From positions 1-64,000 of the forward strand of contig JAFGXR010000020.1 in assembly GCA_016936555.1 (NCBI GenBank): a stretch of 64,000 nucleotides of DNA, read 5' to 3'. Source of the DNA: Spirochaetales bacterium (GTDB taxonomy: Bacteria > Spirochaetota > Spirochaetia > DSM-2461). Positions 54,150-64,000 of the stretch are shown piece after piece (within the stretch, counting starts at the first letter, position 1; each line of letters begins with the position of its first letter). The notes under the pieces were generated by a model, which was not told the DNA's origin, did not search any database, and saw nothing but the letters and a program-made list of their open reading frames with translations. The position numbers and the translations under genes are program-made.

Positions 54150-55310
54150 CTATAAAGCCCTGTTCCGCTCGATCAGCCCGAGTCTCTGTTTCACCGATTC
54201 ATGGGAGCTCAGCGGGTCGACGGGCGTATTCTTGCAGTAATCCACAAGCTGATCCACTGTGGAAACCGCCACGTGCATTCTCGTGTCGGAAGAGGCGTAG
54301 TAGATGAGAAGACGTCCGTCGTCATCGGTTATCAGCCCGTTCGTGAAGACGACGTTGGACACATCTCCCACCCGCTCGCTGCCTTGGGGAGCCATGAGAT
54401 AGCCGCCCGGCCTATAGAGCAGTTTTTCCGGATTATCCAGTTCGGTCATAAAGGCGTATATGACATAGCGCAGGCCGTCGGCCGTGTTGCGGACACCATG
54501 AGCGATATGGAGCCATCCCTCATCGGTTTTGACTGGAGGGGCTCCGGCACCGTTTTTCACTTCCTTGATGGTGTGGTAGATTTTCTCATCGAGAACGGTT
54601 TCTTTACCGATAACCGCGCAGGTCATATCGTCGCAATAGCCGACGGAAATTCCGCCGCCCGATCCCGTATCGATAAAACCGTCCTGGGGTCTCGTGTACA
54701 GAAGGTATCTGCCATTTACAAACTCGGGGTGGAGAACGACGTTTCTCTGCTGGGACGAAGGCGTCTTCAGATCGGGAAGCCGTTCCCAGTTCTCCAGGTC
54801 TCTGGTCCGGATCATGGCGGCGCTGGCGACGGCGCTGGCCGTATCACCGGGAGCCGCATCGGGATCTTTCCGTTCGGCGCAGTAGATGCCGTATATCCAT
54901 CCGTCTTCGTGCTGCGTCAGCCTCATATCGTAGGAGTTTGTCTCTTTATGGGGATTTTCCGGCATGAGGAGGGGCTTGTCTGTAAAGCGGAAGTGGATTC
55001 CGTCAGGGCTTTCCGCCAGGCTGAAAAAGGATTTTCTGTCCATGCCCTCGATCCGGCACATCAGGTAGTATTTTCCCTTCAGCTTGATGGCTCCCGAGTT
55101 CATAACGGCGTTGATTCCCATCCGCTCCATAAACCAGGGATTGGTTTTCTCATTGAAGTCGTAGCGCCAGTCCAGGGGCGTGTGCTCCGCGGTCAGGATC
55201 GGATATTTGTATCGTGTGTATATGCCGTTTCCGGGCAGGACCGGTACATTTTCCAGGGCTAGAAGCTCGGCGTGGGCTTTTTCTATTCGGGATTTTCTCT
55301 CATTAAACAT
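54150..55310 (-). CDS. GH130 phosphorylase, probably 4-O-beta-D-mannosyl-D-glucose phosphorylase
   Basis: 386 residues from the ATG at 55310, which has AGGAG 7 bases upstream; a start at 55331 is less likely. GH130 marks: '[20 protein letters not shown]' region, '[14 protein letters not shown]' with the probable acid Asp near 128, and the phosphate-pocket region '[10 protein letters not shown]'. It should phosphorolyse mannosyl-glucose to mannose-1-phosphate and glucose. The epimerase gene upstream, overlapping by 8 bases, makes its substrate from mannobiose. Length and motifs fit the GH130_1 branch, though other mannoside phosphorylases remain possible. Confidence 0.85.
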
Positions 55311-56502
55311 TTCTTTTCTCCTGTTTTTCAATTCGGTGGATCAGTTCCATAGAGGCCCGCCCGTTGTGATAGGGCGTTTTCCACATTCCGCCTTTTTCGC
55401 GGTCCAGAACTGATCCGTCGTCTTTTATACCCCAGAACCATTCTCCCTTTACTCTGTCGGTCTGCTGGGTTTCTATATAATTCCAGAGCTTTTCCAGTTT
55501 TATCAGATATTCCTCATTTCCCGTCATCTCCCAGCCGTTCATCAGGCTGACGGCGTATTCCGCCTGGACCCACCATATCCTGGTTTTGTCGAGATGGCCG
55601 TCGTGTTTTTCATTGTAGAGGCTGCCGTCGGGAGCTGTGGCCTTTACGCTCGATACATCCAGAAGTCTCAACACTGTTTCCCTGTACTCTACCTGCAAAT
55701 TTTCATCTCCGAGGATCTGAAGAGCTTCCCACAGGAGCCAGCTCGTCTCCACATCGTGCCCATAGGATTCCACATCGCCCGCGGGGGTCCAGTCTTTCGA
55801 GAAGTAAAGTTTCTGATGACCGGTTGAACGATCGTAGATCTTATCGGTAATGATTCTGATCAGAGAGACAAGCGCCTCTTTGACATCCTCTCTCCGGCTC
55901 TGAAGATAATAGCGCGTATAGGCTTCGAGCATATGGAGGTTGGTGTTCATGGATTTCTCGCAGGCCATATCGTCGGCGCCCAGATTGTTGACCCCTCCGT
56001 ATGCCCAGTCTCGGCTGCAGGCTTCGTAATAGCCGCCGAGTTCTCTGTCCCTTCCGTACCGTTCGAGGTAGCCGAAGATCTCTCTGCAGAGTTTTTCCGT
56101 CCCGGCCGAAGGGCTGATCATCTGAAAAGTGCTCAGGCCGTAAAGGGCGAAGGCCTGCCCGTAGAGGACTTTCTTGTCGTCGACAGGCTTTCCGTCTCGG
56201 TCAACCAGCCAGTAGAAGCCTCCGTATTCAGGATCTGTCAGCACGGAGATGAGAATATCATATAACTCCGTGGCGAATTCCAGGTATTCCGGCCGTTCTG
56301 TCATTCTGTATGCTTCAGAGTAGGTCCAGAGGAAACGCGAGACCATAACCAGTCCTGTCGGCGCATCGGGATCGGGGATATTATCATTGGAAATTTCTCC
56401 GTAAAGCCCGCCGTCTCCGCGGCGCATGTGTTCCATCCAATAGTTGAGTATGGATCCGTGCAGTTCCTCCCGGACCCGTATTTTCAATTTCTGCCAGTTC
56501 AT
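55303..56502 (-). CDS. Cellobiose/mannobiose 2-epimerase (AGE family)
   Basis: 399 residues. An alpha/alpha-barrel of the N-acylglucosamine 2-epimerase family, with conserved histidine regions '[10 protein letters not shown]' (near 245) and '[14 protein letters not shown]' (near 308), the form typical of cellobiose 2-epimerase. It inverts the 2-hydroxyl of the reducing sugar, turning mannobiose into mannosyl-glucose. Pairing with the GH130 phosphorylase is the known mannan-utilisation module. No mannanase is in the window, so mannobiose must come from elsewhere. Confidence 0.88.
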
Positions 56503-56658: not shown

Positions 56659-56886
56659 ATGAAAGTCTCAAAAATCAGAAAAAGGCCCCGCTATATAAGG
56701 AAAAGCCATCTCGCCCGGCAGGAGGAGATTCTCCGCAAAGTCCTTGAGGGCAGCGAAGAGGCCTGGCTGAAGATTGAAAGATATCTCGAGAAGAACAGCG
56801 ATGCCCAGATCAGTCACGGGATCTGCGATGATTGCATGGAGAAACTCTATGGCGATCAACCGTGGTTTCAAAAAAAACAGCAATAG
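56659..56886 (+). CDS. Orphan 75-residue protein resembling a sensor-kinase linker
   Basis: 75 residues. The C-terminal half 'ERYLEKNSDAQISHGICDDC' resembles the short segment ('...FSHGICPEC...') that occurs between PAS or REC domains of many signalling proteins. The usual preceding CxxCKKIR half is missing. It could be a remnant of a larger signalling gene or a free-standing small protein with a CxxC pair. It lies just upstream of the response regulator. Ribosome site weak. Confidence 0.5.
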   Translation: MKVSKIRKRPRYIRKSHLARQEEILRKVLEGSEEAWLKIERYLEKNSDAQISHGICDDCMEKLYGDQPWFQKKQQ

Positions 56887-56954: not shown

Positions 56955-58526
56955 ATGACTTTTCATAATTACAGAGTACTGATCATCGATGATGAAGAAA
57001 AAATCGTCAAACTCATCTCAAATCTCATAGACTGGGACACTCTCCCCCTTTCTCTGGCGGGCACGGCCCACGACGGGCTGTCGGCTCTCGAGTTGATCGA
57101 CAGGGAGGAACCGGACATCGTCATCCTCGATATCAGAATGCCCGGGCTGACGGGGCTGGATATCATCTCCAGGGTCAAGCAGTCGGGACGGGATATCCAG
57201 TTCATTATCATCAGCGGTTACCGCCATTTCGAGTATGCCCACAACGCCATAAAGTTCGGCGTTGAGGATTATCTTCTCAAGCCGGTCAAAGAGGAAGAAC
57301 TGAACCGGACCTTGAAAAATATCATAGAGAGAAAGCGGGACAGCCGGAAACTGGAGGAGCGGGAACAGTCGAAAAGGGAACAGGATTTTATCAAGATCCT
57401 TTTCGACGGCCGCGGGAAGCCTCTGCCCGGGGATTTGGGAGTCACACTCCCATATGATACATTTGAGGTCTATTATCTCAAATGCGACCTGAACAGGAAT
57501 GAGTGGAACGGCAATGAGGCTGCGCTGCTCGAAGACAAAGTCTCCAATACCCTGAAAACCGTTTTTTCCGACGGGAGAACGGCTCCTTTCTTTTACCGCG
57601 ACGGGGGAGGTATCTATATACTTCTCAATTTCCGGAGCGAGGATTCCAGGATTATCGGCAATTACTTTTTTAATCTGATTGAAGGGCTCCATTCCTACAG
57701 GGATCTTTTCAGGGATCTTACGGCAACTGTTTCCGCGAGCGGACCTTTCGAAGATCTTTCCGATTTTTCCGGGAGGGCTTCCGCCGCGGCCGGTCTGATT
57801 CAGGAGCGTTATGTCCGGGGCAGCGGAGCGGTTATCGAAAACAGACCTGCTCCGGACCAGATTGATATAAGCGATATTGTATCATCGGCTTTCAGAAGAG
57901 ATTTCCTCCGGGCCGTGGACTGCCTCGACTCTGAAGAATCGGAAAAGCTTGTTTCAGAACTCTATAAGACTCTCTGCGAGCTTAAGGTTTCAGGCCGTCT
58001 CCTCTACCGGACCCTTCAGGAAATCCTGAAGATCTTCCGCTTCAACGGGGAGAACAGCCTCGAAATCGAGACCACTTTCGGCAGAGAGTTTGAACAGCTG
58101 GAACAGATCCTCGCTGAACAGAGTTCCGGAAAGAGTCTGTATTCCATAACAGCCTCCTTTTTCCGGGATGTCCTGTCGGAACTGCAGAAGAGGAAACGGA
58201 ACCGCGATGAAAGACCGATTCTCGATGCCAAAAAATACATCCAGGAAAATTTCTATCTCAATCTCTCTCTGGAGGATGTCAGCTCCCGGATCGGGATAAG
58301 CCCCACTTATCTGTCCACGCTCTTTAAGAAGAAAACGGGAACGGGATTTCTCGAATATCTGACGATGGTCCGCGTCGAGGAGGCGAAGGAGCTGCTGGCC
58401 GATCACAGAAGATCCATTGCCGATACGGCGGGCGAAGTCGGTTACAAAGATACGAAGCACTTTACGAAGCAGTTCAGAAAAGTTGTCGGTCTGAGTCCCG
58501 CCGAATACCGCAAAATCTATTACTGA
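56955..58526 (+). CDS. YesN-type response regulator, AraC DNA-binding domain
   Basis: 523 residues. N-terminal receiver domain (about 5-122) with phospho-acceptor Asp59 in 'DIVILDIRMPG', acidic pair 'IIDDEE' and the conserved Lys in 'YLLKPVKEEE'. A long middle helical region, then two AraC-type helix-turn-helices at about 425-520 ('FYLNLSLEDVSSRIGISPTYL', 'VGYKDTKHFTKQFRKVVG'). It should switch on the downstream sugar transporter when phosphorylated by the kinase encoded 8 bases later. Confidence 0.92.
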   Translation: MTFHNYRVLIIDDEEKIVKLISNLIDWDTLPLSLAGTAHDGLSALELIDREEPDIVILDIRMPGLTGLDIISRVKQSGRDIQFIIISGYRHFEYAHNAIKFGVEDYLLKPVKEEELNRTLKNIIERKRDSRKLEEREQSKREQDFIKILFDGRGKPLPGDLGVTLPYDTFEVYYLKCDLNRNEWNGNEAALLEDKVSNTLKTVFSDGRTAPFFYRDGGGIYILLNFRSEDSRIIGNYFFNLIEGLHSYRDLFRDLTATVSASGPFEDLSDFSGRASAAAGLIQERYVRGSGAVIENRPAPDQIDISDIVSSAFRRDFLRAVDCLDSEESEKLVSELYKTLCELKVSGRLLYRTLQEILKIFRFNGENSLEIETTFGREFEQLEQILAEQSSGKSLYSITASFFRDVLSELQKRKRNRDERPILDAKKYIQENFYLNLSLEDVSSRIGISPTYLSTLFKKKTGTGFLEYLTMVRVEEAKELLADHRRSIADTAGEVGYKDTKHFTKQFRKVVGLSPAEYRKIYY

Positions 58527-58534
58527 GGCTTATT

Positions 58535-59557
58535 GTGAAATCTCCCCTTCGAAGTTATCTGTTTCACCGCATGATCTTCATCTCGGCAATTTATCTATTG
58601 ATCCAGGTCGTCACGATGTTTCTCCTGTTCAGCGGTTCCGGTTCCGGGTCTGCCGCTTTTCTGCTGCTGGGGGGTATCGGGATTTTCTTCCTCATGGTCT
58701 TTCTGTTTCTCTACAGGCCCTTCCGAAAAATGGAGAAGAGAATCGATGATTATGTGTACGGTTACAGCGGTGAGCTTCTCCCGGAGGAGGGCGTCTCGGT
58801 TTCCGAATCTCTTGACCGCCTTCTGGCGAAAATCCGCGAGGACCTGAGAACGGAAAAGCTTCTTCGCAATTCTGACCGGCAGGCCGAATATCTGGCTCTT
58901 CAGAACCAGATCAATCCCCACTTTCTCTACAACACGCTGGAGGGTATCAGAAGCGACGCCCTGTCGGAGGGAGTTGATAATATCGCCTCCATTATCGAGT
59001 CTCTGGCGGTTTATTTCCGTTATACCATAAGCAAAGTGGACCGGCTCGTAACCCTGGAAGAGGAACTGGCGAACCTGAACAACTATCTGGCCATTCAGAA
59101 CTACAGGTTCGGCGGGAAAATTTCCCTTGTCGAAGTATTCGATCAGTGCGATCGCTCGGTCTGTTCTCATCTCATTCCCAAACTGATTCTCCAGCCTTTT
59201 ATGGAAAACGCCATTATCCACGGGCTTGAGGAAAAGGTCGGTCCCGGCGTCGTGAAAATCATCTTCTCCCATACGGAAGACCGCCTGCTGCTGACAATCG
59301 AGGATGACGGTGTGGGGATTGGCGAGGACAAGCTCTGGAACATCAACGCCTCGCTTTCCACTGTTTCCGGAACGGCTGAGGCGGACAGAAGCGGCGCGGG
59401 AGGCGGAATCGCCATTAAAAATGTAAACAACAGGATCAAGCTGCTCTTCGGGGAGCGGTTCGGGATCAGGCTCCGCAGCATGAAGAATATAGGCACTTCC
59501 GTGGATATTTCTCTTCCTCTCCTCTCCCGGGGGGAGAACCGGGACGGCGATCCGTGA
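58535..59557 (+). CDS. YesM-type sensor histidine kinase, short form
   Basis: 340 residues, GTG start. Two membrane helices (about 12-32 and 40-60) joined by a very short loop, so it lacks the large extracellular sensor of typical YesM (about 580 residues). A short linker is followed by the LytS-type kinase domain with phospho-acceptor His129 in 'NQINPHFLYNTLEG' and ATP box 'TIEDDGVGIG'. It may sense through partner proteins such as the transporter or the pseudo-ATPase that follows with a 4-base overlap. Confidence 0.9.
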   Translation: MKSPLRSYLFHRMIFISAIYLLIQVVTMFLLFSGSGSGSAAFLLLGGIGIFFLMVFLFLYRPFRKMEKRIDDYVYGYSGELLPEEGVSVSESLDRLLAKIREDLRTEKLLRNSDRQAEYLALQNQINPHFLYNTLEGIRSDALSEGVDNIASIIESLAVYFRYTISKVDRLVTLEEELANLNNYLAIQNYRFGGKISLVEVFDQCDRSVCSHLIPKLILQPFMENAIIHGLEEKVGPGVVKIIFSHTEDRLLLTIEDDGVGIGEDKLWNINASLSTVSGTAEADRSGAGGGIAIKNVNNRIKLLFGERFGIRLRSMKNIGTSVDISLPLLSRGENRDGDP

Positions 59558-60948
59558 AGAGCGAGCTGCTGAGTCTGGAATACATTTGCACGCCTGGAAA
59601 AGGGAGTCCCGTTCTCCAGGATTTTTCCATGGAGCTTTTCCGCGGTGAAATTGTCGGCCTTCTCACTATGAATTCCAGAGAAATCAGTTCGCTCGTCGAA
59701 ATCCTCACTGGTCAGACAGCTCCCCAGAGCGGCAGGATTTCCTATAACAATAAGCCTCTGCTCTCCAGTTATCCCGGAAGGAAATCGCCGATTATCGTGC
59801 TGGGCCGCAGAAGCCAGCTGATCGATGATTTCAATATCGCGGAAAATATTTTTGTCCTCCGCAGGGGATTCGGAAAATATCTGATCAACAGAAAGACTCT
59901 GGAGGATCAGGCGGCGGCGATGCTGGAAAAACTGGGGATCGCTTTTCCCTCCACTTCCTACGTCCGGGATCTGTCGGTTCTGGAAAAACTGATCATCCAG
60001 ATCGCCAAATCCCATATTCTCAGGTATCCGGTCATTGTTCTCCGCGAACTGTCGGCCTTTCTTTCCGACGATGATCTGGCGAGGCTGCTTCCTTTTCTGA
60101 AAGAGCTGGCCTCGGGCGGGCAGACTTTTCTGGTTCTCGATTCCACTTCCTCTGTCGTCGGTAAGGTGAGTTCCCGGGTGCTCCTTCTTCACAAGGGCCG
60201 GAACCTGTGGAATTTCCGGGAAGGGGAGTTTTCTCCTGCGCTGCTGGAACGGTTTTTCAAGGTCGACCGCGGGAGTCCCCCTTCGGGACCCGATACGGAG
60301 TCGCCGGGAGAGCTCGTCCTATCTCTGGAGGACGGCGCATCGGCTCTTCAGGCGCGGAAAGGGTCTGTTCTCGTCGCCATTGATCCCGAAGGCGGGCGTA
60401 TCTGCAGAATGATGGAATTTCTTAAGGGCTGCGGCGCCGCCGGTGATCTGAAGCTCCGGCTCCGCGGACGGATAATCCCTCAGCCCGGTCCCCGTCTGCT
60501 TTTGAAGAAGGGGATCGCGCTGATCGGGGAGGATCCCCTGGAGGGACAGCTCTATCCCCAGTTGAGCGCCCTGGACAACCTGGTTTTTCCCATGGGGGAG
60601 AAAGTTCCCTTTTTCTGGCAGAGACGGAGATTCCGGGAAAATGTAGCCCGGCAGTACGAAGCCCTTTTCAGTTCCGATGCCCTGAACTGCAGGATTTCAG
60701 CGCTCTCCTCAACAGACAGGCTGACTCTCGCCTATATGCGATGGCATGTATATTCTCCCGATCTGGTCATTCTCTTCCGTCCCTTTTCGACGGTGGACGG
60801 CCGGCTGGAGGAGCTGATCATCAGCCATATGAGCCGCCTGCTGGAAAAGGGAATCGGACTTCTCATTCTCACATCCAATTTATGGGAATTGAGCGCCCTG
60901 AAGGAAAAATTACCGGTTCAGATCCAAAGATTGCCCCCTCTCTCCTGA
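59554..60948 (+). CDS. Degenerate double ABC-ATPase-like protein (probable regulatory pseudo-ATPase)
   Basis: 464 residues, GTG start overlapping the kinase stop. The length and two-half layout match the CUT2 sugar ATPases (RbsA/MglA), but the nucleotide-binding parts are gone: where Walker A should be it reads 'GLLTMNSREISSL', the signature is absent, and Walker B reads 'VIVLRELSAF'. The second half lacks Walker A as well ('VLVAIDPEGGRICRM'). The fold seems kept, so this is a repurposed protein rather than decay: the frame is open and co-translated. It probably links the sensor kinase to the transporter. Confidence 0.75.
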   Translation: MKSELLSLEYICTPGKGSPVLQDFSMELFRGEIVGLLTMNSREISSLVEILTGQTAPQSGRISYNNKPLLSSYPGRKSPIIVLGRRSQLIDDFNIAENIFVLRRGFGKYLINRKTLEDQAAAMLEKLGIAFPSTSYVRDLSVLEKLIIQIAKSHILRYPVIVLRELSAFLSDDDLARLLPFLKELASGGQTFLVLDSTSSVVGKVSSRVLLLHKGRNLWNFREGEFSPALLERFFKVDRGSPPSGPDTESPGELVLSLEDGASALQARKGSVLVAIDPEGGRICRMMEFLKGCGAAGDLKLRLRGRIIPQPGPRLLLKKGIALIGEDPLEGQLYPQLSALDNLVFPMGEKVPFFWQRRRFRENVARQYEALFSSDALNCRISALSSTDRLTLAYMRWHVYSPDLVILFRPFSTVDGRLEELIISHMSRLLEKGIGLLILTSNLWELSALKEKLPVQIQRLPPLS

Positions 60949-60997
60949 AGAACCGCCTTTGACGGCTTAAATTCCCGGTGGTACGATTTGATCAGAT

Positions 60998-62506
60998 ATG
61001 GCAATTGAAGAGAATATTTTAAACATTGAAGGCGTCAGCAAAAGTTTCCCGGGAGTCAAGGCTCTTGACCGGGTTTCCTTTAATCTGAGGAAGGGCGAAG
61101 TACACGCCCTCCTGGGAGAAAACGGCGCGGGAAAATCGACCCTGATGAAGATCATCGGCGGTATTTATACCAAGGACGAAGGATCCTATGAAGCCTTCGG
61201 TGAGAGGATCGATGATCTCAATCCCCGGAGAGCCGAAGAGCTGGGTATCGCCATCATCCATCAGGAACTGAATCTCTGCGAGCATCTGACCGTGGCGGAG
61301 AATATTTTTCTGGGACGGGAAGAGGTCCGGTTCGGCATGATCGCCCAGAGGGAACTCAACGGCAGGGCCGATGAAATCCTGAGGCAGCTGAAAATCGACC
61401 TGGATCCGACCACGCTGATCGAAGATCTGCCCGTGTCGAAAAAGCAGATGGTGGAGATCGCCAAAGCCCTTTCCGTCGATGCGAAGATTCTGATCATGGA
61501 TGAGCCGACCAGCGCTCTGACCGACCGCGAGATCGAAGATCTCTTCCGGATTATCGGAGACCTTAAAAGCCGGGGATGCGGGATCATCTATATTTCGCAC
61601 AGGCTGGAAGAGCTGGAACACATTGCCGACCGTATCAGCATTTTCCGCGACGGCCGGTATATTATCACGAAAGATTACAGGGACACCCATCTGGATGAGA
61701 TCATCTCCTATATGGTGGGCCGGGAGATCAAAGAAAAGTTTCCCCGTCTGGAGAGGGAGAGGGGCGCCAGGATTCTGGAAGTCAGGAATCTCAATTCCGG
61801 CATGGTCCGCAACGCCAGTTTCGATCTATACGAAGGGGAGATTATAGGTTTCGCCGGGCTGATGGGCGCCGGGCGCACAGAGCTCGTGAGGGCTCTGTTC
61901 GGAGCGGAGCATATCGACTCGGGAGAAATCGTTCTCGACGGGAGGGAGCTCTCCATCCGCTCGCCCAGAAACGCCATTCAGAACGGAATCGTGCTGGGGC
62001 CGGAGGACCGGAAACTCGAGGGGCTCTGCGGAAAACTCTCGGTCCGGGAAAACATCGGCCTGGCCAATCTCGACAGGATTTCAAATACTCTGGGCGTGGT
62101 AAACCGGAAAAAGGAGCGGAAGCTGGCGGAAGGAGCCATCGGCGATCTGAAAATCAAGACGCCATCGATGGATCAGCTGGCCTTCAATCTTTCGGGAGGG
62201 AATCAGCAGAAAATCGTTGTGGCCAAATGGCTGGTCCGCAATGCCCGGGTCGTCATATTCGATGAACCGACCAGGGGAATCGATGTGGCTGCCAAGGTCA
62301 GCATCTATAAAATAATGAATCAATTGAAGGAAGCGGGGATCGGTGTCATATTCGTTTCCAGCGAGATGCCCGAAGTTCTGGGCATGAGCGACAGAATCCT
62401 GGTAATGTGCAACGGCCGCATAACCGGAGATCTGCCGGCTGAAGAAGCCACAGGGGACAAAGTTCTCTACTACGCCACCCGTTACGAAGAGGAAGGAAAG
62501 ATATGA
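60998..62506 (+). CDS. CUT2 sugar ABC transporter ATPase (RbsA/MglA type)
   Basis: 502 residues with two ATPase halves. Half 1: Walker A 'LLGENGAGKSTLMKI' (near 39), signature 'DLPVSKKQMVEIAKALS', Walker B 'ILIMDEPTSALT'. Half 2: the degenerate Walker A 'GFAGLMGAGRTELVRAL', which is normal for the family, signature 'LSGGNQQKIVVAKWL', and 'VIFDEPTRGIDVAAK'. It powers import through the permease that overlaps its end by four bases. The sugar cannot be read from sequence. Confidence 0.93.
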   Translation: MAIEENILNIEGVSKSFPGVKALDRVSFNLRKGEVHALLGENGAGKSTLMKIIGGIYTKDEGSYEAFGERIDDLNPRRAEELGIAIIHQELNLCEHLTVAENIFLGREEVRFGMIAQRELNGRADEILRQLKIDLDPTTLIEDLPVSKKQMVEIAKALSVDAKILIMDEPTSALTDREIEDLFRIIGDLKSRGCGIIYISHRLEELEHIADRISIFRDGRYIITKDYRDTHLDEIISYMVGREIKEKFPRLERERGARILEVRNLNSGMVRNASFDLYEGEIIGFAGLMGAGRTELVRALFGAEHIDSGEIVLDGRELSIRSPRNAIQNGIVLGPEDRKLEGLCGKLSVRENIGLANLDRISNTLGVVNRKKERKLAEGAIGDLKIKTPSMDQLAFNLSGGNQQKIVVAKWLVRNARVVIFDEPTRGIDVAAKVSIYKIMNQLKEAGIGVIFVSSEMPEVLGMSDRILVMCNGRITGDLPAEEATGDKVLYYATRYEEEGKI

Positions 62507-63582
62507 AAAGCGGATACAGGGGGAGGAGATCAGTCCTTCAGAGAATTCTGGCAACCAGGGGCATCGGACAGGTCATCAGCGTTTCAATAGCCCTGATCAT
62601 CATGTCCATTATTTTCGGGGTCATCAATCCGGCTTTTTTCTCCCGGGAGAATACGCTTAATCTGCTCCGGCAGGTGGTACCCATACTCATTATCGGAATG
62701 GGGCAGTCCTATGTCCTCATCACCGGGGGGATAGACCTCTCCATCGGTTCGGTCGCCGGCATGAGCTGCATGCTCAGCGCCACCCTTATGACCCGGGGCG
62801 GGCTGAGTCCCGTCCCCGTGATATTCATCACCCTCCTAGCCAGCGCTACGGTGGGGCTGATCAACGGACTGCTTGTGGCCAAAACGAAACTGCCCGCTTT
62901 TATCGCCACTCTGGGCACCATGATCATTGCCAGGGGGATCGCCCAGCTGTCCAACGGCAATATGAACACAGACGGAATTCCCGCAACGGCGGATACATTC
63001 AAAGAGGTTTTTTACTACGGAGAGACTTTCGGACTCTATAACCCCGTATGGATAGGGATCTTCCTCTTCGTTCTGTTCAATTTTATCCTCAGCCGCACCA
63101 GAACCGGGCGCTATACCTATGCGATCGGAAGCAATTACGAAGCGGCCAAGCTGTCGGGCGTCAATGTCGTGGCGGCGGAAACTCTGGTATACGTTTTCAG
63201 CGCCTTCCTCGCCGGCGTTCTGGGACTGATTCTCACCGCCCAGAGCGGTATGGGAACCATGAACGCCGGAACAGGTTACGAGCTCAATGCCGTGGCGGCT
63301 TCGGTTATCGGGGGCGTGAGCACTATGGGCGGTCAGGGACTGCTTTTCGGTACGGTTATCGGCTCCTTTATATGGGGAGTATTAAATAACGGTTTACAGT
63401 TTGCCGGCGCACCGCTGGCTTTGAGAAATCTGGTTATCGGCGTCGTCGTCATCATCTCTGTTCTGATCGACAGAGTGGCCCGGAGCGGAAAAGTGGATCT
63501 TTCGAAGCTGGTGAAAAGCATCGGACGTAAATTCAATAAAACGGAGGAAAGTGATGAAGAAAAAATTACTGAGCTTACTTAG
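62503..63582 (+). CDS. CUT2 sugar ABC transporter permease (RbsC/MglC type)
   Basis: 359 residues with about ten membrane helices. Family marks are 'LITGGIDLSIGSVAGMSCML' near 75, 'PAFIATLGTMIIARGIAQL' and 'AVAASVIGGVSTMGGQG' near 265. It forms the membrane channel for the ATPase encoded upstream. It overlaps the binding-protein gene by 29 bases. Confidence 0.93.
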   Translation: MKSGYRGRRSVLQRILATRGIGQVISVSIALIIMSIIFGVINPAFFSRENTLNLLRQVVPILIIGMGQSYVLITGGIDLSIGSVAGMSCMLSATLMTRGGLSPVPVIFITLLASATVGLINGLLVAKTKLPAFIATLGTMIIARGIAQLSNGNMNTDGIPATADTFKEVFYYGETFGLYNPVWIGIFLFVLFNFILSRTRTGRYTYAIGSNYEAAKLSGVNVVAAETLVYVFSAFLAGVLGLILTAQSGMGTMNAGTGYELNAVAASVIGGVSTMGGQGLLFGTVIGSFIWGVLNNGLQFAGAPLALRNLVIGVVVIISVLIDRVARSGKVDLSKLVKSIGRKFNKTEESDEEKITELT

Positions 63583-64000
63583 TGTCATGATCGCAGGATT
63601 CATGCTGATCGGCTGCGGATCGGGAAAAGAGGAAATGAGCAGTGCCGCGGCACCGGTCGAAAAAGCGAAGACGGTTTACCTGATTACCATGGATAAAATG
63701 GACCAGCACTGGGTCGCTGTTGACAAGGGCGCCAAAACAATGGCTTCGGCTTTGGGACTCAACTACAAATGGGACGCCCCCGATGTGAAGGACAACGCCA
63801 AGCAGATCGAAGCGGTTAACAATGCTGTCGCCGATAATGCGGATCTTATCCTCCTGGCGGCCAATGACCCCAACGCAATTTCCGCTGCGGTCAAGAATGC
63901 CAAGGCAAAAGGCGTGAAGATCATCTATGTCGACTCGCCCGCCAATGAGCCGGCTATCGCGACCCTTTCGACTAACAATACCCAGGCCGGAGCTCTGGCC
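63554..64000 (+). CDS. Sugar-binding lipoprotein of the CUT2 transporter, cut by window end
   Basis: Start ATG 63554 with GGAGG upstream; 149 codons are visible and the gene continues beyond 64000. The lipobox 'MLIGC' follows a short signal. The mature part begins as a type I periplasmic sugar-binding fold: 'YLITMDKMDQHWVAVDKGAK', 'ADLILLAANDPNAI' and 'VKIIYVDSPAN', as in RbsB/LsrB-like proteins. It should capture the sugar for the permease and ATPase upstream, and might also inform the YesM-type kinase. Confidence 0.9.
   Translation, partial: MKKKLLSLLSVMIAGFMLIGCGSGKEEMSSAAAPVEKAKTVYLITMDKMDQHWVAVDKGAKTMASALGLNYKWDAPDVKDNAKQIEAVNNAVADNADLILLAANDPNAISAAVKNAKAKGVKIIYVDSPANEPAIATLSTNNTQAGALA

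Follow-up and report, generated by a model that had tools for sequence, protein, structure and literature searches.

A degenerate RbsA-like ATPase encoded with a sensor-less YesM-type kinase beside sugar importers of Spirochaetia

Between a two-component system and a sugar importer of a Spirochaetales bacterium lies a gene whose product resembles the double ATPase RbsA along its whole length and has none of its ATP-site motifs. What might such a protein do beside an intact RbsA, and to which of its two neighbours does it belong? We examined this question in the window, the 64,000-nucleotide stretch of contig JAFGXR010000020.1 (assembly GCA_016936555.1) whose relevant features are collected in Table 1, and in related loci of other Spirochaetia genomes.

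Table 1. Features of the window operon, and the operon of genome G276 used for comparison
Feature	Coordinates	Strand	Basis
YesN-type response regulator (REC, ~300-aa middle part, AraC HTH)	56955..58526	+	Pfam (Response_reg 3.8e-25, HTH_18 3.5e-24), conserved gene order
Short YesM-type histidine kinase, 340 aa	58535..59557	+	Pfam (His_kinase 9.1e-25, HATPase_c 1.5e-10), hydropathy, kinase tree
RbsA-like pseudo-ABC-ATPase, two NBDs	59554..60948	+	Pfam, NCBIfam, BLASTP, AlphaFold2, Foldseek
Candidate sigma-70 promoter, TTGACG-17-TACGAT	60959..60987	+	consensus match only
Intact RbsA-type double ATPase, CUT2 transporter	60998..62506	+	NCBIfam RbsA 6.2e-180; motifs intact
RbsC-type CUT2 permease	62503..63582	+	Pfam BPD_transp_2 9.3e-44; NCBIfam ribose permease 5.6e-62
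Periplasmic sugar-binding protein, lipoprotein-like N-terminus	63551..64000, on to contig 64486	+	Peripla_BP_4 (5.4e-47 on the whole gene, L046:5552-6487)
G276 operon: response regulator, kinase, degenerate ABC protein, binding protein, permease	L131:7866-12339		Peripla_BP_4, BPD_transp_2

An RbsA paralogue without ATP-site motifs

The pseudo-ATPase gene begins with GTG and encodes 464 amino acids with no internal stop. Its product matches Pfam ABC_tran (E 1.4e-10) and the NCBIfam models of the RbsA/AraG/AlsA type (best E 1.8e-24; RbsA 3.6e-23 over residues 5-452), with scores of 82-86 bits that stay below the curated equivalog cut-offs of 689-850. BLASTP aligns it over its full length with the adjoining RbsA (E 3e-19, 21% identity). 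In the AlphaFold2 model of the protein alone (mean pLDDT 82), how the two halves sit relative to each other is not certain, given a pTM of 0.59, and Foldseek retrieved tandem ABC ATPases as the top PDB matches of this model (E down to 2e-20). By its tandem ABC domains and full-length homology, the protein belongs with RbsA; judged by its motifs, neither half has the functional ATP site expected of an RbsA/CUT2 ATPase.

All ten ATP-site motifs, five in each half, are gone (Walker A, Q-loop, signature, Walker B and H-loop). The Walker A motifs GENGAGKST and GLMGAGRTE of RbsA are replaced by TMNSREISS and DPEGGRICR, the Walker B motifs IMDEPTS and FDEPTRG by VLRELSA and LFRPFST, the H-loop SHR by DST and the Q-loop HQE by GRR, and the signature positions hold LSVLEKL and LSSTDRL. 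Every one of these motifs is intact in the adjoining RbsA. The same losses run through the clade of the window protein: at the aligned places, the Walker A Lys, Q-loop Gln, signature Gly and Walker B Asp are each found in 0 of 14 members, as is the first-half H-loop His (0/14), and all 14 RbsA proteins encoded beside these pseudo-ATPases keep every motif. New residues are shared in turn, with the second Walker B FDEPT changed to xQPF in 12 of the 14 and the first H-loop region changed from SHR to NH in 10, the consensus being CNHH in most.

The kinase encoded just upstream combines His_kinase (PF06580) and HATPase_c domains and adjoins a REC-AraC regulator, which makes the two a YesMN pair. 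Hydropathy predicts two membrane segments with only a very short connecting loop, leaving almost nothing external, and the domain search gave no match to PAS, HAMP or sensor domains. Among the genome's 15 YesM-type kinases, this one is the shortest (open frame of 409 vs 510-755). The end of its gene, stop codon included, overlaps the start of the pseudo-ATPase gene by 4 nt.

The initial annotation had described a two-lobe protein set between a two-component system and its sugar transporter, devoid of recognisable Walker A, signature and Walker B motifs in both halves, and co-translated with a kinase lacking an external sensor domain. This description holds throughout: coordinates, full-length homology and fold search agree on the protein, the motif comparison with RbsA on the losses, and the 4-nt overlap on the coupling, and the gene is flanked by YesN-YesM upstream and RbsA-RbsC-binding protein downstream.

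In most of the related loci, the gap between the kinase and pseudo-ATPase genes is likewise -4 nt, and the one between the pseudo-ATPase gene and rbsA measures ~49-154 nt. In the window, the latter gap holds the candidate promoter (one found vs 0.1 expected), and the nearest relative, G007, has the hexamers TTGACT and TACTCT at the corresponding places. Because this candidate precedes rbsA, expression of the transport genes could be independent of the sensor genes. Direct repeats of CCACCTTT with 19-21 bp spacing exceed shuffled sequences in this gap in ~5 of 15 loci; CCACCTTT-like repeats lie upstream of rbsA in L041, L080 and L083, for example, where the AraC-type regulator may bind. We treat them as a weak lead only, since the pattern was picked post hoc and repeats at 21-bp spacing are absent from the window's own pseudo-ATPase/rbsA gap.

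Divergently from the operon, genes for a GH130 mannooligosaccharide phosphorylase and an AGE-type epimerase occupy positions 54150-56502 of the minus strand. Together they resemble a beta-mannobiose pathway, which is a possible clue to the substrate. Neighbouring genes differ between loci, with a FucU/RbsD-like gene in L040, ROK and SIS genes in L078 and a SIS gene in L087, and for this reason we claim no sugar as the substrate. Just 5' of the response regulator gene, the window also contains a 75-aa ORF with a ISHGICDDCMEKLYG motif (56659-56886, plus strand); some signalling proteins carry motifs similar to ISHGICDDCMEKLYG at their ends. Two genomes of one genus have, directly 5' of the regulator gene, a gene with a sirtuin-like TGAG motif (L081:4619-5422 and L082:4690-5490).

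Recurrence of the kinase/pseudo-ATPase pair in the Spirochaetia

Searches of 61 and 395 genomes revealed relatives sharing the motif loss in 16 genomes, with scores well apart from those of true RbsA proteins, and these relatives in other Spirochaetia genomes rule out a lone oddity of one genome. The order regulator-kinase-pseudo-ATPase-RbsA-RbsC-binding protein is found in 14 complete loci from several families of the class, the one exception being L079, in which an opposite-strand ORF lies between the regulator and kinase genes. The 14 pseudo-ATPases are 24-46% identical to the window protein. What the initial annotation had seen as one case, suggesting that the same order be sought elsewhere, is thus a recurrent module. 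A phylum-wide draw of 393 genomes gave 0 cases outside Spirochaetia, one contig scan for the family outside the class returned only a true ATPase, and tblastn against plasmids gave only matches of 25-27% identity, the same level as ordinary RbsA proteins.

The pairing can also be approached from the side of the kinase. Applied to 390 genomes of the class, a profile of the short kinase retrieved 24 such proteins in 22 genomes (E <= 1.4e-81); the next match (1.1e-70) is a full-length kinase with a 623-aa frame, ordinary YesM kinases having ~600 aa. A degenerate RbsA-like gene directly follows all 24 short kinase genes. In the kinase tree, which took in the 23 of the 24 that could be placed, the short kinases form one clade (support 99/99), and they occur in at least three unrelated types of CUT2 operon. 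In the ATPase tree, which carries long-branch warnings, the 22 pseudo-ATPases are split from every true RbsA (94/100). The intact RbsA proteins of the same operons do not form one clade, which indicates that the kinase and its pseudo-ATPase have been joined, as a pair, to different transporters. Evolutionary distances of kinase and pseudo-ATPase correlate with r 0.94, and their partial correlation of 0.71 is the highest among the gene pairs; since distances are not independent, this result is supportive rather than proof. Taken as a whole, these sequence comparisons make the partnership of the pseudo-ATPase with the kinase well supported.

Beyond the window clade, a short kinase is paired with a degenerate RbsA in the sister clade B (L125-L128) and in L089, L129, L130 and L131. 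Clade B loci (G050, G070, G098 and G048) have the order regulator-short kinase-half-degenerate RbsA-permease-RbsA-permease; three of the four (L125, L126 and L128) show a 4-nt overlap between the pseudo-ATPase gene and its own permease gene, and a weakly matching binding protein lies beyond the second permease in L125 and L126. The first NBD of clade B retains GLNGSGKS and the Walker B Asp and has lost the signature, the catalytic Glu and the H-loop, and the ATP site of the second half is entirely gone. L089 resembles clade B and likewise retains the first-half Walker A, which reads GLNGSGKS or GLNGSGKT across clade B and L089, and the Walker B Asp. Given what clade B keeps in its first half, nucleotide binding may matter there. 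The signature motif is absent from all 22 kinase-linked ABC proteins examined.

The most divergent arrangement comes from L131 in G276, a single-contig genome that is 99% complete. Here the kinase has 260 aa and no membrane segment; it starts 9 nt past the regulator stop, and the reading frames upstream of it conceal no membrane segment. No RbsA is encoded in the 17 kb surrounding the operon. A soluble, sensor-less kinase needs a cytosolic informant, of which the pseudo-ATPase is the obvious one, and since the operon has no motor, its permease looks like a receptor. The operon is possibly a transport-dead receptor, although an ATPase encoded elsewhere in G276 could serve that permease. This arrangement, free of both ATPase and transmembrane kinase segment, is known from one locus of one genome.

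The signalling role that the initial annotation had proposed has therefore gained ground in its tie to the kinase, through the pairing in 24 of 24 cases, the joint evolution and the G276 locus. Its other part, docking on the permease, is considered below and is graded as compatible.

A possible route from permease to kinase

On balance, we favour a model drawn from these comparative data in which the pseudo-ATPase is probably a signalling subunit that takes the seat of RbsA on the permease and informs the kinase of ligand or transport state. An RbsA paralogue that lost ATP binding and hydrolysis would have become the dedicated input subunit of a sensor-less YesM-type kinase. The sugar-loaded binding protein would dock on the RbsC permease; the pseudo-ATPase, sitting on the cytoplasmic coupling helices either in RbsA's place on some permeases or beside it on an RbsA-loaded one, would follow the conformational change of the permease without ATP and hand it to the dimerisation/catalytic part of the kinase just under the membrane, through a putative contact. 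Phosphorylation of the AraC-type regulator would then raise expression of rbsA, rbsC and the binding protein gene from the candidate promoter. The genes would divide into a sensor unit (regulator, kinase and pseudo-ATPase) and a transport unit (RbsA, RbsC and binding protein), with the permease and binding protein common to both.

In ABC importers, the helical subdomain of the ATPase meets the coupling helices of the permease. The pseudo-ATPases keep the Asn and, in the first half, the Phe of the xxENxF segment that follows the Q-loop (N98 in 13/14, F100 in 13/14 and N342 in 14/14), and their docking on the permease instead of the true ATPase would be compatible with this, as it would with the overlap of pseudo-ATPase and permease genes in three clade B loci. 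The case for retained docking rests on few residues, as the helical subdomain taken together is not more conserved than the core (mean conservation 0.22 vs 0.30). By analogy with BceS, the window kinase, which keeps two transmembrane helices, could also sense the permease directly.

The protein could instead bypass the permease as a cytosolic metabolite sensor or scaffold, its ABC fold binding a sugar phosphate or another ligand. Nucleotide sites rebuilt with clade-specific conserved residues and the soluble kinase of G276 would suit such a function; however, CUT2 genes lie in or beside the operon wherever the contig is long enough, G276 included, and the post-Q-loop Asn is retained in both halves, so that we regard this reading as unlikely. 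Quite unlikely, too, is a role in transport itself, with the pseudo-ATPase acting as a brake or assembly factor that competes with RbsA and its co-encoding with the kinase being incidental. As an RbsA paralogue from the same operon, it could indeed sit on the same permease, but its translational coupling is with the kinase and not with rbsA, it evolves in step with the kinase and not with RbsA, it accompanies the kinase into unrelated transporter operons, and it is kept in G276, whose operon offers no RbsA as a competitor.

That the protein is an active, non-canonical ATPase with unrecognised nucleotide-binding residues seems very improbable: the first-half Walker A and Walker B Asp of clade B and L089 would favour activity, whereas the window clade has lost the P-loop Lys, the Walker B Asp and the first-half H-loop His in every member (0/14 each) and a signature motif occurs in 0 of the 22 kinase-linked proteins.

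For the closest pair of loci, the dN/dS of the pseudo-ATPase gene is 0.138, near that of the regulator (0.12) and somewhat above those of the kinase (0.089) and RbsA (0.084). One copy, in G030, is split by an insert carrying an opposite-strand transposase-like ORF and also has a frameshift (L088:8985-10388), and the G389 copy is cut by the contig end. The reading of the gene as a decaying pseudogene, for which only the broken G030 copy speaks, is refuted for the family by open frames in 14 complete loci, the fixed gene order and the closest-pair dN/dS of 0.14. The initial annotation had allowed that homologues with intact motifs might expose the window gene as a mere decayed copy; the relatives of its clade are all degenerate and under purifying selection.

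Relation to known transporter-linked signalling

The favoured signalling subunit resembles the RbsA of CUT2 importers in its full-length homology across two NBDs and in the position of its gene beside an intact RbsA-RbsC-binding protein set; it differs in the loss of the ATP motifs and, in the window, in the translational coupling of its gene to the kinase and not to the permease. A functional parallel is BceAB-BceS of Bacillus, in which an ABC transporter gives input to a kinase without extracellular sensor; functional BceAB is required for signalling, and the transporter's own expression is regulated (PMC10314905, PMC7828314). The window kinase has the same two transmembrane helices and lack of an extracellular sensor domain. 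The Bce combination of a BceB-like permease bearing a large extracellular domain with an active ATPase is not present here; instead, the permease is of the BPD_transp_2 (RbsC) type, the kinase comes from another family, the dead ATPase paralogue is a separate protein and the context is a spirochaete sugar importer.

XylFII-LytS is a xylose system whose partners are an AraC-type regulator and a CUT2 importer. Its binding protein acts on the ligand-binding domain of the kinase (Li et al. 2017, cited in PMC6321045). Both systems add a third, transporter-derived component of sugar uptake to the kinase, but here an ATPase paralogue of the cytosol fills that place and the kinase lacks any external domain. 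Other transporters act as co-sensors, such as the Pst transporter with PhoU and PhoR, and MalK with MalT; to our knowledge, it is a working transporter that does the signalling in the known cases (BceAB, Pst and MalK). In the literature searched, which included few subscription papers, we found no description of a degenerate ABC ATPase as the partner of a histidine kinase.

We put at about even the chance that spirochaete ABC importers have been turned, wholly or partly, into membrane receptors, with a dead ATPase replacing the motor and driving a sensor-less kinase. If so, these loci would encode a three-part signalling system of a new type, present in G276 as an operon without any working ATPase. 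A dead ATPase paralogue has apparently been split off for signalling, selected across a bacterial class and moved with its kinase between sugar transporters. Clade B, possibly able to bind ATP, the fully degenerate window clade and the motorless G276 operon would together provide a natural series for dissecting transporter-to-kinase signalling, and where a gene next to a YesMN pair is annotated as 'sugar ABC transporter ATP-binding protein', its product may be a signalling subunit.
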